From Antedon mediterranea (taxonomy: Eukaryota > Echinodermata > Crinoidea > Comatulida > Antedonidae): DNA of 64,000 nucleotides. The stretch lies in NCBI RefSeq assembly GCF_964355755.1, contig NC_092672.1, positions 1,302,001 to 1,366,000 on the forward strand, written 5' to 3'. A model generated the notes under the pieces. That model did no database searches and was not told the DNA's origin. It saw only the letters and a list, made by a program, of their open reading frames with translations. Positions 48,484-61,187 of this stretch are shown here, piece after piece. Within the stretch, counting starts at the first letter, position 1, and each line of letters opens with the position of its first letter. Both the position numbers and the translations under genes were made by a program.

Positions 48484-49123
48484 AGGCTCTGTCCACACTA
48501 TTAAACTAGTTTGCCAAAAAAAGTGTCATGTGCTGAAATATGGTAGTGATATGCCCAAATGTGGTAGTGATATGCCTAAATATGGTAGAGATATGCTCAA
48601 ACATGGTGGTGATATGTCCAAATATGGTAGTGATATGCTCAAATATGGTAGTGATATGCTCAAATATGGTAGTGATATGCTTAAATATGGTAGTGATATG
48701 CCCAAATATGGTAGTGATATGCTCAAATATGGTAGTGATATGCTCAAATATGGTAGTGATATGCTCAAATATGGTAGTGATATGCCCAAATATGGTAGTG
48801 ATATGCTCAAATATGGTAGTGATATGCTCAAATATGGTGGTGATATGCTCAAATATGGTAGTGATATGCTCAAATATGGTAGTGATATGCCCAAATATGG
48901 TAGTGATATGCTCAAATATGGTAGTGATATGCTCAAATATGGTAGTGATATGCTCAAATATGGTAGTGATATGCTCAAATATGGTAGTGATATGCCCAAA
49001 TATGGTAGTGATATGCTCAAATATGGTAGTGATATGCTCAAATATGGTAGTTATATGCTCAAATATGGTAGTGATATGCTCAAATATGGTAGTGATATGA
49101 CGTTATCATGTCCATATATGGGC
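48484..49123 (+). mobile_element. MITE family A, copy 8, internally expanded to ~27 units
   Basis: The left end is AAGGCTCTGTCCACACTATT, followed by the TAGTTTGCC segment, then about 27 tandem 21-bp units (48533-49098), then GACGTTATCATGTCCATATA and TGGGC. The right inverted end is lost. Units alternate GCTCAAATATGG and GCCCAAATATGG; the CCC type recurs at 48701, 48785, 48890 and 48995, i.e. every 84-105 bases. Confidence 0.92.
48533..49098. repeat. 21-bp satellite array inside a MITE
   Basis: The unit is GATATGCTCAAATATGGTAG plus T. Because 21 is a multiple of three and the unit has no stop in several frames, it produces open frames of 171-214 codons on both strands (LKYGSDM, SNMVVIC and SISLPYL repeats). 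These are frame artefacts, not proteins. Confidence 0.95.
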
Positions 49124-52410: not shown

Positions 52411-53085
52411 TACCGTAAATCTTATAACTGTAACAACCCTGGGTTATTATTCTTTGTTTGTTTTTAGAGTGAGTTACTAATTAGAAGGGGAGTTACTATT
52501 AAAGTAGTGGGTTACTATTAATAATCTTAAATTAGGCACCTGGAAATAGTAACCCACCCCAACTTTTCCGGTCAGCAACTCATTTGGTTGAACTCTAACT
52601 TTATTTTATAAACTGAAAACACCAAATCCTCCCCTACTCCCGAGATCAACATGCATTATTTCCTTATTTTCAAAAATACGGCTGCATCATAAGTTTTTGT
52701 GACACTAGTATTAACCCACATGGGTTACTATTACAGTAGTGGGTTATTATTATAGATTGACTCATAAGGTGGGTTACTATTAGAGGGTGGGTTACTATTA
52801 GAGTGTGGGTTACTATTAGAGGGTGGGTTACTATTAGAGAGTGGGTTACTATTAGAGTGTGGGTTACTATTAGAGGGTGGGTTACTATTAGAGGGTGGGT
52901 TACTATTAGAGGGTGGGTTACTATTAGAGTGTGGGTTACTATTAGAGAGTGGGTTACTATTAGAGTAGTGGGTTACTATTAGAGGGTGGGTTACTATTAG
53001 AGTGTGGGTTACTATTAGAGTGTGGGTTACTATTAGAGGATGGGTTACTATTAGAGTGTGGGTTACTATTAGAAGATTTACGGTA
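52411..53085. mobile_element. Possible element with TACCGTAAATCT inverted ends enclosing an 18-bp array
   Basis: TACCGTAAATCT (52411-52422) and AGATTTACGGTA (53074-53085) are exact inverses bounding the whole GTGGGTTACTATTAGAG array and a short inverted copy of it (AATAGTAACCCACCCC at 52546-52561). There is no coding capacity. The ends may be terminal inverted repeats or coincidental. Confidence 0.5.
52771..53073. repeat. 18-bp minisatellite, ~17 copies
   Basis: The unit is GTGGGTTACTATTAGAG followed by one variable base (G, T or A), with one unit extended by TA near 52965. The minus strand reads as an SNSNPH/SNSNPP repeat over part of the array; this has no gene context. Confidence 0.95.
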
Positions 53086-54811: not shown

Positions 54812-54979
54812 GGCCTTATACTATTATTACTTTAAAACATGCCATTGATATATTATAACTACCGGTCACACTACAGACATCCGATTGGTTGATATCCTGT
54901 TAAAAGGGAAACCATTGAAAAGAAAACAGGTAATGAAGTGTATGATATGGTGTAAGTAAACGATTAAACGTTCGCAAAA

Positions 54980-57536
54980 ATGCAGATACTAAAAAAATGG
55001 TTAATAGTACTTTTTCTACTATTCCTTGTCTGCACACAAGGGTCCTCGTTTCGTCGTCGAAGAAGACGCAGGCGTCGCTCACCGCCTGTGGTTAATTGTG
55101 CATGGGGCCCGTGGACTGAGGGACCGTGTAGTCATGCCTGTGAAAACAGTGGAACATTAACTAGACGAAGGGTGCAAACTACCCATGCTTCAGGTGGAGG
55201 CCTACAATGCAAAGGAGATGGGGTTGAAACTATACGTTGCAATAGGTTTTGTTATAATGGTGGAACTCCTTCCGAAGAGGGCTGCTCATGTAAAGATCCT
55301 TACTATGGTACATGCTGTGACAACTGTACTTCAACACAGTGTGAATGGAGTGAGTGGGGAAGTTGGTCGGAATGTACGCCTAATTGTGGAGTTAACCGAT
55401 ATAAGATACGTAACAGAGATATCATGAAAGAAGCAGTATGTGGAGGTGCACCGTGTAATGGAACCTCAACAGAAAGAAATGAGTGTGAACCACTTTGTTT
55501 AAATAATGGTCTTATTATAAATGATAAATGCAAATGCACTACACCGTACAGTGGTGACTGTTGCGAAGTGTGCAATGCAGTGGATTGTACATGGACTCAA
55601 TGGGGTGAATGGGCAAGTTGTGATCCACTGTGCGGAGTAGATCGTCAACGAACAAGAGAAAGAAGACAGAACCCTTCAATATGTGGGGGTAATCCATGTG
55701 TAGGCCTTCATTTAGAAACTGAAGATTGTGAACCTTTATGTTATAATGGCGGCGTACCTTCTGGTGGTAGCTGCAGCTGTACACAAGAATACACGGGCCA
55801 ATGTTGTGATTCATGTGTGTCATTGAATTGTACCTGGGGTCCATGGACGCTATGGTCACCTTGTCAACCACCTTGTGGTAACAACCGTACTAGAACTCGC
55901 CAACGTGCTATATTACATCAGGCAAAATGTGGTGGTATCTGTGATACTGATCTTGCACAAGAAACGGAACAATGTGGGTCATATTGTCTACATGGAGGGA
56001 CTCCTATGAATGGGTACTGTGAGTGTGATACACCTTTCTCGGGCACATGCTGTGACGTGTGTGCTGCAGTAAATTGCCAATGGAGTCATTGGGGAAGGTG
56101 GTCTGCTTGTGATCCAGTTTGTGGGGCTGTGAGAAATAGGACACGATCTATGTTCATTGCAGAACATCCTCAATGTGGTGGAAACGAATGTGGGCAGCAA
56201 CCTGTAGAGACGACTATGTGTGAATCCTTATGTTTTCACGAAGGAACAGCAATTGGAGACCATTGTTATTGTAAGCCATCGTTCACTGGAAGTTGCTGCC
56301 ATGTATGTGCACCTACTGACTGTGTCTGGGAAGAATGGAGTAGTTGGTCACCGTGTGCTCCGGAATGTGGCACACAGCGCATACAGACACGGACAAGACG
56401 AATATTGACCCCAGAAAGTTGTGGTGGACTTGAGTGTATTGGAGAAACATTTCAAAATCAAACATGTTCTTCAATTTGTTTCAATGGTGGTACACCAGAC
56501 GATAACCAATGTCTGTGTCCTCCGTCCTTCAATGGAGAATGTTGTGGGTCGTGTGAACCAAAGGATTGCCATTGGGAAACGTGGCAGGAATGGTCAGCTT
56601 GTCAACCTCAGTGTGGAAGGAATCGACAAAAGAAAAGAATTAGAACGATTCTTGCTCACGCAACATGTGAAGGATTATGTCCTGGTTCTAGTACAGATGT
56701 CGTAAGCTGTAATGACACATGTGACCATGACGGTACACCAATGGATGGCTATTGTTTATGTCAAAGGCCATTTTCTGGAACGTGCTGTGAGCAATGCATT
56801 CTCTCGGATTGTCAACTGTCATCGTGGAGTCAATGGTCAGAATGCTCTCCAGAATGCGGAGTTAACAGAACGAGAACGAGAATAAGATCAGTCGAGCACG
56901 AGGCTGAATGCGGTGGATTGACATGCGCAGATGACCTGACAGATCTTGAGTCGTGTTCTTCTCTATGTTTCCACGGAGGCGTGGCTACCGGCGACACGTG
57001 TAGTTGCCATTCTCCTTACAAAGGTGCCTGCTGTATACAATGTGATCCCACAGATTGCACATTTTCGGAGTGGTCTTCTTGGTCTGACTGTCTACCAATC
57101 TGTGGAAATAATAGGTCTCAGCAAAGAACTAGATACGTAACAACGCCACAAAGCTGTGGCGGGCAGTGTGTTAGTAATACTACGGTAAGCAGACCTTGTA
57201 AGCCTATCTGCTACAATGCTGGCATATCGATTTCATCTGGCGAGTGTCAATGTAAAGTACCGTTTACTGGATCATGCTGTGAAACCTGTCATTCTGTTAA
57301 CTGCACGTGGGGAACTTGGCAGCCTTGGTCAGAATGTCAACCAAAATGTGGAAGTTCCCGTCAGAGGAGTCGAATACGAACTTTGGAAAGTCAGCCCATC
57401 TGTGGTGGAACCTGTTCTGGTTCTCCAATTGAAACCGATACTTGTGAAGATCTTTGCTTTAATGGTGGAACCCCTGTTGATGGGCATTGTCAGTGTCCAT
57501 TTCCCTTTTCGACAATTTCTTGTTGTAAATCTTCTG
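54980..57536 (+). CDS. TSP1-repeat gene exon 1: signal peptide, Arg run and ten TSP1/EGF-like modules
   Basis: 852 codons plus one base, ending ...ISCCKSS before a GTAGGT donor; reading on past it gives only ten more codons before a stop. The ten modules begin at CAWGPW, CEWSEW, CTWTQW, CTWGPW, CQWSHW, CVWEEW, CHWETW, CQLSSW, CTFSEW and CTWGTW. Modules 8 and 9 lack the first Trp. Module 1 is the most divergent (CSHAC without the usual G). Confidence 0.92.
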
Positions 57537-60500
57537 GTAGGTTGTTTTTAATCAACATTTTGGACTAAATCCAATAATATACATTCACAATGTATTAATT
57601 TAGCCTTGTTTGTTTATGTAAGAGTATGATTTAAGTAAACTTGTACTTTTGGTAAATGGTAACCATAAGAACTGAACTGCTACATTTTGCTTTTAAGTTT
57701 TTCTTACAATCATTACTTATTACATTGCTTAGTTTACATATTTTGAATAATGTGTTTGGTTCTTATTTATTTAACAAGATGGCGACCCCTGTATTTACCA
57801 CTCTCTTGTCAACGACCGTTGGAGAAGTGTTGGTAACTCAGAGCTCATTCACAGATCATCATCGTGCGATGTAAATATGACGTCGGAAATTTGGTATCGG
57901 TTCAAAAGTATTAGCGGGGAGCAAATAATTGACAGATGCGTGACTATCAACAAATGTGGCGTACATTTTCCAATATGGTTGAAGGGTAAGTGTGTATCGT
58001 TGAACCCATAAGCTGTGTATCCATGAGTGGATGCTGTCATGGGAAATGTAGGTGTTCAATCAAAGAATCGTGAATATGATGGACTTTTAATTTAAGCCTA
58101 GTTATTCTACACTACCAAACTTTACCGAACATTTGTTTGCAAACATCAAATTTGCCAACGTTTGGTGGTACATGTGTGTCTACACTATACTGGAGGTCCA
58201 TTACACTTTACAGTACTGTGTCTACACTATACTGGAGGTCCATTACACTTTACAGTAGGCCTACTGTAGGTCATTAAACATTAGAAGAATAATGTAATTG
58301 CAGAGCAACAAAAAGGTTTGCTCGTTTTACAGTACATTAATAAATAACGTAGGCCTCTTTTATGGAGGCTTTTCTACAGTTAATTGGCCCATTCTATTTG
58401 TGTCGAAAATACATCACTCTCTATTGTACTGTATGTAAATGTACTTCGTAATCCTTAAAATCGAACGTATGCACATTATACAGGAAGACATCCGGTTGAC
58501 ACTGGTAACGAAGTTGAGAGACACGCATGCGTCAGCAAGAGTGAGGATGGCATCACAAAATGCTGTGAGCATAAGAAACCTATCAAAATCAAAAAGTGCT
58601 CCGATTTCTACATTTACAAGTTGGCCTCAGTCCGTTCATGTGATGAGGGATATTGTTCTGGTAAGTTGACCAATGGTCAGCGTCTACTCTACAGTGTTAA
58701 TAATAATATTCTAATTTGTAAATCGCCTAATGATGTTAAACCTCTAAGCGCTGTACATTATTATCATCATGTTGGATCAAACACGTGTACACGTGTATTC
58801 TATTACTTCTGATTTATTAAATATAAGAAATGTGTGCATTAATTAATAAAACTGATTGCGTGTTAATAAATACAGTATAAGCAAATGTAAACTAAACATT
58901 CCTTTTTCAAAAAAACATAAAGTATCAGGAAGTAAGCTTTGGTAACTTTAAAACTTATTTTAAAATGATGATTTCTTTGTTATAGGTGAGGAAGCACCGT
59001 GTCCACCAGGTACCAGTTCCCCAAATGGATATACTCCGAATTGTTTAGGTAGGTTCACTACTTTGCCCCAAATGTAAGTTAAGTTATTTGAATGTAACAA
59101 ATATTACAATACCAATGGTTCATAAAGAGTATCTCAGTTTAAAGAATACAAAATTCAAACGATATGCAATAGGGCCTACCATTAAAAATGTCAATTGATC
59201 CTTCGCATTTCGTAAAATAACGACGTCACACAACATGACGTACTTTTGAAATGGAAATTGTGAGATTTTCGTCGCGTTTTGGAAGTACTGTACTGTATGT
59301 AGCCTAAAAAGTTAGCAACGGTACATTGTGAAGTTTCAGACTAAAGATGGCGACAAACATAACTTAAATGATACGAACAAATGCTGATGCTGAGGATCAC
59401 AGGAAATAACAGGTAAATTACAACAACCCTGGAGAAATATTTATACAATGACCTTCGACTTAATATTGGCAAAAAAAATATTTGGCACGCATAGCGTTTC
59501 ATACGTAAAAGACGAGTTGAAAATCGGAAAACCGACTGATGGAAAACAACAATAAAAAACAATATTTAGAAACTAAAGAGTCAAAGTCTATCTTACGACC
59601 AGGCATACTACACTAATCTCTGATAGTCTTAGTTGTCTTTAGACTTATTAAAGAACCACAATAATTGATGGATATTTAAAATAAGCCTACCTTATTTAGT
59701 TGAAATGTTATTAAAAATAACCACTACTTTCTTCGCTCGAGCTCGATTGTCTGAATATATAACGCCCTCTATAATTAGGCATGGCGCATGACTTGGGTTA
59801 GGGTATTGTTGGGGAAGCTAAAAATGCAACTGCTGTTGATAATCCTTTTTAAAGTGATATTATAATTTTTGCATGCAAACGTAGCTTGCGCATTGCGTAT
59901 GTAAAATTGTATTTATACACATAGTTAACACTTCATACTCACGTTTGTTGTAGTTGTCATTCTACTCATCTTTATCGATAGGCCTACTAAAATTCTGTTT
60001 GATTTTTAAGCCCCTCCTCCGGAGTTGTCCGAACCTGAGCTGTACATAAAGGAGACTTCTGATGGCTTCCATCTTACCTGCGTGTTTTCGTACCCGGATT
60101 CTAATAATGTCTCATTTGATGTGATATGGTCATCAGAGAAGGACGAACTTTATAGAGAAACTTTATCGCAATCTAGAAAATCGATATTACATAAAGACAA
60201 AATTGACGATACTCATCTTTTGGTGAGTTCTTCTTTTTCATCGAAATAAACCAGTTTCTAATTATTTGCTTTATTGGTTATCCGCACTTGGCGGATAACC
60301 CCTTGTTTACCTTTTTTATCAATAAACATTCATTAGTTTTTGTTGTTTGTACTGTATGTTGTACGAGGGCTCTAAATTATTTATTCTATACAGAAACTGA
60401 ATGCCTCCTGCCTCAATAAATATGGCAATTGAAATATAGAAACAGTAACTTCTTCTTTATAACAAAATATCATTTTAACCAAGTGAATTTATTCCGGAGT

Positions 60501-61187
60501 ATCCTATAATTTTGATTATAGTTTAATTTGTTTAAACCTTTTCTACAGATTTATTGTAAGGTTACTGGAAAGTTTCTGTATGACGATGGAACTGCTAAGA
60601 GCGCGCCCTCACATGCTGTTAGTAGTAGAAGCATCCTACTGAGTCTAGAGGTACGTACGTCACATTCAAATGTTGTAACTTGAAACAAAGCTGAGATCGA
60701 TACATACAACACAGTAAATAACACATTCATATATTGTAACTTGAGGAAGCAAATGTCGATACATCAAATACAGTAACTGAACATTTAAAATAAAATACAA
60801 AGACTATAGAGATTGGGGTACGTAAGTCTATACAAAGTGTAAAATCATGAAATTAGGGATTTAGGTGAAGGAAAAACTCAATCATAAAAGTAATTTTTGC
60901 AGGAATTTGAACGAACACCAGAAATAAACAACAACACAAGTAAGACTAGAGCTTCAACAAGATCACAAAGCGAAAGTAGTGACAACACAAACAGCTTCAT
61001 TTTACCGACTGGTATTGGTGTTGGAATTCTCGTTCTAGTTATCATTGTCGTCTTCACAATAATTATCATAAAAAATAAAAGACTACGACTGCCCTCATCG
61101 TCCAAATTGTTTATTTTAAATTCAAACAAACACGGGTCGTGTGAAGAGATATTTTCAAGAAAAGATGAAAATAATACCAGTTTGTAG
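54980..61187 (+). CDS. Ten-module TSP1 repeat / D8C / Ig-like type I membrane protein (1200 aa)
   Basis: Seven exons join at GT/AG sites with matched phase: 54980-57536, 57779-57985, 58484-58660, 58986-59048, 60011-60222, 60549-60650, 60903-61187. A signal peptide (residues 1-21) precedes nine arginines (25-33), a possible furin site. Residues 40-852 hold ten ~81-residue modules, each a TSP1 repeat (CxWxxWxxWSxCxPxCG...RxR...CGG...C) then a CxNGGTPxxxxCxCxxPFxGxCC unit. Residues ~853-981 form a D8C/uromodulin-type domain (NDRWRS, SCD, WYRF, CG.HFPIWLKG, YIYKL, CDEGYCSG). A CPPGTSSPNGYTPNC linker leads to an Ig-like segment (~1002-1106) as in VWDE. A helix (~1139-1162) and a ~38-residue tail end it. 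TSP1 and D8C domains are extracellular, so a surface receptor or adhesion protein is inferred. An in-frame TAA just upstream supports the ATG. No full-length homologue known to me. Confidence 0.88.
57779..57985 (+). CDS. TSP1-repeat gene exon 2: first half of D8C domain
   Basis: 207 bases, phase 1 at both ends. The acceptor is TTAACAAG and the donor GTAAGT. It reads DGDPCIYHSLVNDRWRSVGN ... SSSCDVNM ... WYRF ... CGVHFPIWLKG, the order of the N-terminal half of the UMOD/OIT3/VWDE D8C domain (CD...NDPWRS...CD..GWYRF...CGT..P.WL.G). Confidence 0.85.
58145..58265. repeat. ~41-bp tandem duplication in intron 2
   Basis: GTGTCTACACTATACTGGAG followed by GTCCATTACACTTTACAGTA occurs twice, then TAGGCCTACTGTAGG. 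It resembles, but is not, a family A MITE end. Confidence 0.75.
58484..58660 (+). CDS. TSP1-repeat gene exon 3: second half of D8C domain
   Basis: 177 bases, phase 1 at both ends. It reads RHPVDTGNEVERHACVSKSE ... CCEHKKPIKIKKCSDFYIYK ... CDEGYCSG. This corresponds to HP...G.V.R.AC....CC....I.V.NCG.Y.VY.L....C...YC in uromodulin-type domains. Confidence 0.87.
58986..59048 (+). CDS. TSP1-repeat gene exon 4: Cys-rich linker
   Basis: A 63-base, phase-1 symmetric micro-exon reading EEAPCPPGTSSPNGYTPNCL, with a TTATAG acceptor and GTAGGT donor. In VWDE a similar CxPGxxxxxxxC linker joins D8C to the Ig-like part. Confidence 0.8.
   Translation: MRKHRVHQVPVPQMDILRIV
60011..60222 (+). CDS. TSP1-repeat gene exon 5: Ig-like segment, first part
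   Basis: 212 bases ending in phase 0 before GTGAGT. It opens APPPELSEPELYIKETSDGF, then HLTCVFSYPDSNNVSFDVIW, a B-strand Cys and C-strand Trp pattern like an Ig-type fold. Confidence 0.83.
60549..60650 (+). CDS. TSP1-repeat gene exon 6: Ig-like segment, second part
   Basis: 34 codons, phase 0 to 0, starting IYCKVTGKFLYDDGTAKSAP after a TTTCTACAG acceptor and ending SILLSLE before GTACGT. The YC supplies the second Ig-fold cysteine. Confidence 0.83.
60903..61187 (+). CDS. TSP1-repeat gene exon 7: stalk, transmembrane helix, tail
   Basis: 94 codons plus TAG. A Ser/Thr/Asn-rich stalk of about 30 residues leads to the helix ILPTGIGVGILVLVIIVVFT plus IIII, the stop-transfer KNKRLR and a tail with SCEEIFSRKD. 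The TTTTTGCAG acceptor and phase 0 fit exon 6. Confidence 0.88.
   Translation, partial: EFERTPEINNNTSKTRASTRSQSESSDNTNSFILPTGIGVGILVLVIIVVFTIIIIKNKRLRLPSSSKLFILNSNKHGSCEEIFSRKDENNTSL

Follow-up and report, generated by a model that had tools for sequence, protein, structure and literature searches.

Structure of the gene model

The window analysed here, a 64,000-nucleotide stretch of the Antedon mediterranea genome, contains on its forward strand, between positions 54980 and 61187, a gene of seven exons separated by six GT-AG introns, whose spliced product of 3603 nt encodes 1200 amino acids followed by a stop codon (Table 1). Exon 1 is contained in an open frame of 866 codons (54968-57568) in the list of open reading frames of the window. 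The first-pass annotation had proposed an order of ten TSP1 and EGF-like modules, a uromodulin-type domain, an Ig-like domain and a membrane helix, and this order is borne out by the spliced model together with the domain searches described below. Two tandem repeat arrays are located in the same part of the window: a 21-bp array of 27 copies (48531-49099), which is open in several frames on both strands and is probably a minisatellite and no gene, and an 18-bp GGTGGGTTACTATTAGAG minisatellite of 17 copies (52768-53073), 2 kb upstream of the gene.

Table 1. Features of the gene model (window coordinates).
Feature	Position	Strand	Description
Exon 1	54980..57536	+	Signal peptide, Arg9 run, ten TSP1 + EGF-like modules; 852 codons; donor GTAGGT; phase 1
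F-R9-SPPVVNC motif	55049..55099	+	17 residues, identical in the intact paralogue L001
Exon 2	57779..57985	+	D10C (D8C) domain, first part
Exon 3	58484..58660	+	D10C domain, second part; 177 bp, equal to L001
Exon 4	58986..59048	+	Short Cys linker (NGYTPNC); 63 bp, equal to L001
Exon 5	60011..60222	+	Ig-like domain, first part; Ig_VWDE under cut-off
Exon 6	60549..60650	+	Ig-like domain, second part
Exon 7	60903..61187	+	Ser/Thr-rich stretch, membrane helix, basic stop-transfer, 38-residue tail ending NTSL; without counterpart in the L001 model

That exon 1 and exons 2-7 form one gene, as the same annotation had assumed, is supported mainly by an intact paralogue elsewhere in the genome (locus L001, see below), and because this paralogue has the same exon order, the same intron phases (1,1,1,1,0) and the same lengths of exons 3 and 4, we judge it very likely that the seven exons belong to a single gene. 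The alternative would be a misjoining of two neighbouring genes, one encoding a secreted TSP1/EGF-like protein (exon 1) and the other a D10C-Ig membrane protein (exons 2-7). The exon 1 frame can indeed continue to a stop at 57568, but such an artefact, which we consider very improbable, was rejected on account of the paralogue; weaker arguments against it are that intron 1 (242 bases) contains neither AATAAA nor ATTAAA, and that no ATG precedes the D10C start within the open frame of exon 2. The chance of finding a pair of D8C matches on the same strand at most 10 kb downstream of a TSP1 cluster was roughly estimated at 0.0008 per locus, using 56 TSP1 clusters that were merged by eye from 150 scored hits among 376 candidates.

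The TSP1 and EGF-like array

Pfam recognised ten TSP1 stretches in exon 1, with scores over the cut-off for both TSP1_spondin (137 bits) and TSP_1 (119 bits). The array is composed of ten modules of 80-82 residues each, eight of which contain 12 cysteines, with 11 cysteines in modules 1 and 10. A structural model of two modules, built from the gene's own repeats (pLDDT 85.7, pTM 0.50), gave as its top Foldseek matches the TSRs of thrombospondin-1 (E 6.6e-4) and properdin (E 9.1e-4), with TM-scores of about 0.4, and the top VIA-align match was also a TSR (Z 5.7), no match reaching a Z of 8. The first part of each module is a TSP1 repeat that is predicted by this model to adopt the TSR fold.

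The second part of the module shows the pattern C...C.NGG....C.C...F.G.CC..C of an atypical EGF-like module, in which the third cysteine of EGF seems absent and a C..C is additional. A single EGF-like module had no match in Pfam when searched alone. A profile of the ten copies retrieved 13 sequences from the PDB at E<=1, all of them EGF-containing proteins, among them Notch1, fibrillin-1, HHIP, EGF and neuregulin, the best E being only 0.0068. Because the VIA-align matches fell mainly on the TSP1 parts, the EGF-like part was modelled separately (pLDDT 73), and its fold matches were weak (E at least 0.86). The EGF-like identity of this second part is therefore regarded as fair, not firm. The TSP1 motif C..[ST]C..G is linked to O-fucosylation by POFUT2; it is found in none of the ten modules of the window gene, in contrast to all five TSP1 modules of L001.

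The D10C domain and the Ig-like part

When exons 2-7 were searched alone, Pfam reported D8C_UMOD with 43.7 bits (cut-off 27). The search of the whole 1200-residue product, which recovered the ten TSP1 modules, did not list D8C, and it gave Ig_VWDE at a score under the threshold. Searching the PDB with the D8C part returned GP2 (3e-14) and uromodulin (2e-12), and in the alignment with GP2 all ten cysteines are present. According to the excerpts of PMC8930769, the domain has been redefined as D10C, with cysteine pairing 1-8, 2-9, 3-6, 4-10 and 5-7; because the ten cysteines of the redefined domain are present, D10C appears to be a better name than D8C for the domain described here.

The following Ig-like part is a tentative assignment. 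Its Ig_VWDE scores of 20.1 bits (whole protein), 22.6 bits (exons 2-7) and 25.7 bits (genome scan) are all below the cut-off of 28.1, and no Ig structure was matched in the structure search. With 26 identities over 119 alignment columns (49 over 131 for D10C), the Ig-like part appears poorly conserved between the window gene and L001, and in the latter no Ig_VWDE match was obtained at E<=1.

Membrane helix and topology

The hydropathy of the helix encoded by exon 7 is 3.47 (Kyte-Doolittle, 19 residues). A count over the whole window, taking one phase per site and requiring a stop within 900 bases, covered 3087 YAG sites on both strands, and exon 7 is the single one that opens a frame of at least 60 aa with a helix of at least 2.8, in agreement with the membrane helix claimed initially. 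Exon 7 rests on one copy, since paralogue L001 is helix-free; several candidate hydrophobic frames are present downstream of the three related D8C loci (L001-L003), none of them attributable to the gene. If exon 6 is left unspliced, it is followed by ten further codons and a stop, which would result in a secreted form. The N-terminal position of the signal-like segment puts the TSP1 arm far from the membrane and the D10C-Ig unit next to it, the reverse of the arrangement pictured in the first-pass annotation. The tail finishes in T-S-L, which is a PDZ-ligand-like end.

Paralogues and other related loci in the genome

A protein search of the 354-Mb genome revealed three further loci at which a TSP1 exon is followed downstream by D8C exons. 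The first, L001 (G000:C1:33642500-33652499), lies on another chromosome than the window gene, is intact and encodes 612 aa in six exons, of which exons 3 and 4 have exactly the lengths of those in the window gene. It shares with the window gene the SP-FR9SPPVVNC segment, a TSP1 array on one exon, an EGF-like CC module, the D10C domain, the linker, the Ig-like part and the intron phases, but it differs by having five tandem TSP1s and a single EGF-like module, and by a model without a membrane helix, its last exon running into a stop with no helix encoded. All nine arginines of the Arg run are kept in both genes and eight of the nine codons differ; a protein feature has thus been conserved while the DNA drifted. 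Over the 255 aligned codons after exon 1, 81% of the synonymous and 43% of the nonsynonymous sites differ between the window gene and L001.

The two other copies are decayed: L003 (C5:19.30 Mb) is interrupted by two in-frame stops, and L002 (C1:33.72 Mb) has in-frame stops and a first D10C exon that is divided between two frames. These two copies, located on two chromosomes, share 97.5-98.9% identity across the five longest blocks that they have in common, so that they do not count as independent; they represent a recent inter-chromosomal duplication. Between L001 and L003 the dN/dS is 0.46; as one of the two is intact and the other decayed, this value was not taken as proof of selection. The intact secreted paralogue suggests a real, small family that was assembled from known parts.

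Four further loci (L004, L005, L011 and L012) carry the same type of TSP1 + EGF-like (C..CC) module as the window gene, with 38-46% identity between exon 1 of the window gene and L004. Some of them, unlike the window gene, appear on visual inspection to carry a hydrophobic anchor at the N-terminus; no D8C was found at these four loci among the matches listed. On L004 (G000:C5:30638000-30647999, minus strand), long single TSP1/EGF-like frames of 204, 615, 411 and 321 aa are present, those of 204 and 321 aa being the ones that start, by eye, with a hydrophobic anchor. At locus L014 (G000:C11:2896000-2903999, plus strand, from base 166), a single frame stays open over 2538 aa and begins with a signal-like segment; its first 1500 residues, the part examined, read as TSP1-like modules on a single exon. 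TSP1 matches are spread over C1-C11 among the matches listed.

Two inverted D10C-type loci, L007 (C9:13.62 Mb, plus strand) and L008 (13.58 Mb, minus strand), have a second D10C exon that reads alike; their D8C score of 21.1 bits is below the cut-off, and no TSP1 match was located nearby among the matches listed. Regular tandem VWD matches with a spacing of about 1.7 kb were observed at G000:C3:38096795-38150495, perhaps corresponding to a large VWD-repeat gene. The genome scan with D8C_UMOD listed six matches, and because the D10C exons of the window gene itself were not among them, such exon-by-exon genome scans miss true copies. The only exon listed in the Ig_VWDE genome scan was that of the window, below the cut-off.

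Relation to VWDE, Equinox, uromodulin and GP2

The order in VWDE is D8C, linker and Ig, and the first-pass annotation had described a VWDE-type block that lacks a VWD domain. The latter point is confirmed, Pfam listing no VWD at E<=1 in the 1200-aa model. The former was upheld in part: VWDE is included in the D10C alignment in the excerpts of PMC8930769, but Ig_VWDE remained below its cut-off in the window gene, was unmatched in L001, and was also unmatched in a VWDE-like gene located at C2:4.225-4.243 Mb, whose putative Ig exon had no match in Pfam. The link to VWDE is weaker than had been stated, the putative sharing of the D8C-linker-Ig order depending on the sub-threshold match in the window gene and on the domain order of VWDE given above. 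The C2 gene encodes on the same strand a D8C (29.1 bits, cut-off 27) and a VWD (33.2 bits, cut-off 22.9), as well as an EGF-like region below the cut-offs; its VWD exon was absent among the matches listed in the genome VWD scan. The presence of this separate gene with D8C and VWD rules out that the window gene is the VWDE orthologue. What the window gene has in common with VWDE is the D10C domain, followed in the window gene by the sub-threshold Ig_VWDE match; VWDE possesses VWD and EGF repeats and, in the excerpts of PMC9117669, no TSP1, whereas the window gene possesses TSP1 and no VWD.

A role as a wound or regeneration matrix protein acting like VWDE or planarian Equinox, the membrane form being shed or acting locally, was weighed on the basis of this relationship. 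Equinox is described in the excerpts of PMC9117669 as a planarian wound epidermis protein that is needed for blastema formation, that joins TSP1 to EGF repeats resembling those of VWDE, and that is reported from cnidarians to cephalochordates. It resembles the window gene in its signal peptide, its TSP1 and EGF modules and its relationship to VWDE, but it is a secreted protein in which several EGFs follow one or two N-terminal TSP1s, and no D10C-Ig-membrane part is described for it in these excerpts; the window gene alternates ten TSP1s with EGF-like modules and ends in D10C, Ig-like part and helix. The membrane anchor of the window protein, and a model with neither a listed VWD nor a C-terminal EGF tandem, also argue against a wound role, and because Ig_VWDE failed to match the Ig of the C2 VWDE-like gene its likelihood is further reduced, so that we consider it unlikely, at roughly one chance in six. 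A role in innate immunity, with the protein acting as a microbe-binding surface receptor or decoy in the manner of uromodulin and GP2, appears marginally less likely still. It finds support in the D10C domain, which in GP2 and uromodulin forms part of the decoy module (PMC8930769, in excerpt) and which is present in the window gene with all ten cysteines and the GP2 match reported above, and in the occurrence in the genome of several genes with TSP1/EGF-like arrays and of decayed copies. According to the same excerpts, the high-mannose glycan that catches FimH is carried by N65 in GP2 and N275 in uromodulin; the window protein has Y and K at these positions. In contrast to uromodulin and GP2, it also has no ZP module listed by Pfam in the 1200-aa model, and a TSP1 array is added. 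The idea of a long stalk presenting a uromodulin-type domain for pathogen binding is not supported in that form, as the array is membrane-distal and D10C is situated close to the membrane, beneath the long arm; a uromodulin-like FimH decoy is poorly supported.

Proposed function and significance

The reading that we prefer, and to which we assign about half of the total weight, is that the window gene encodes, as one gene and as a new combination of known domains, a type I surface adhesion glycoprotein that would bind matrix or polyanions. In this proposal, the TSP1 arm, braced by disulfides, would extend from the cell with its polybasic tip, and both would bind polyanionic partners, either sulfated glycans or matrix glycoproteins. 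Next to the membrane, the D10C-Ig unit would form a compact base for protein binding, and the protein would be anchored inside the cell by its short tail with the T-S-L end; the secreted paralogue L001 would be the soluble matrix form. Because the arm would bind matrix or polyanions, D10C-Ig protein partners, and the tail would act as anchor, adhesion to matrix or to neighbouring cells is, judging from the domain types, the most likely role. The Arg run could instead be a furin-type processing site.

The domain types are known, but their order appears to be new within the literature searched: among the matches listed in a search of partial coverage, this domain order was not found described. 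Unnamed predicted proteins of the same order may well exist in the gene sets of other echinoderms. We consider it reasonably probable that the gene represents a so far undescribed family, characterised by SP-F-R9-SPPVVNC, a one-exon TSP1(/EGF-like) array, D10C, a Cys linker and an Ig-like part, of which L001 would be the secreted form. The window copy differs from L001 in its membrane exon, in the EGF-like modules that separate its TSP1s and in its lack of O-fucose-type sites, and it would thus be a secreted matrix protein that has become an adhesion receptor of the membrane, unless the change went in the other direction. The gene places the uromodulin-type D10C domain in an invertebrate TSP1/EGF-like surface protein, and the same genome encodes both a secreted and a membrane form, which makes testable both the interconversion of matrix protein and receptor via exon gain or loss, and the role of D10C outside the vertebrate decoy proteins.
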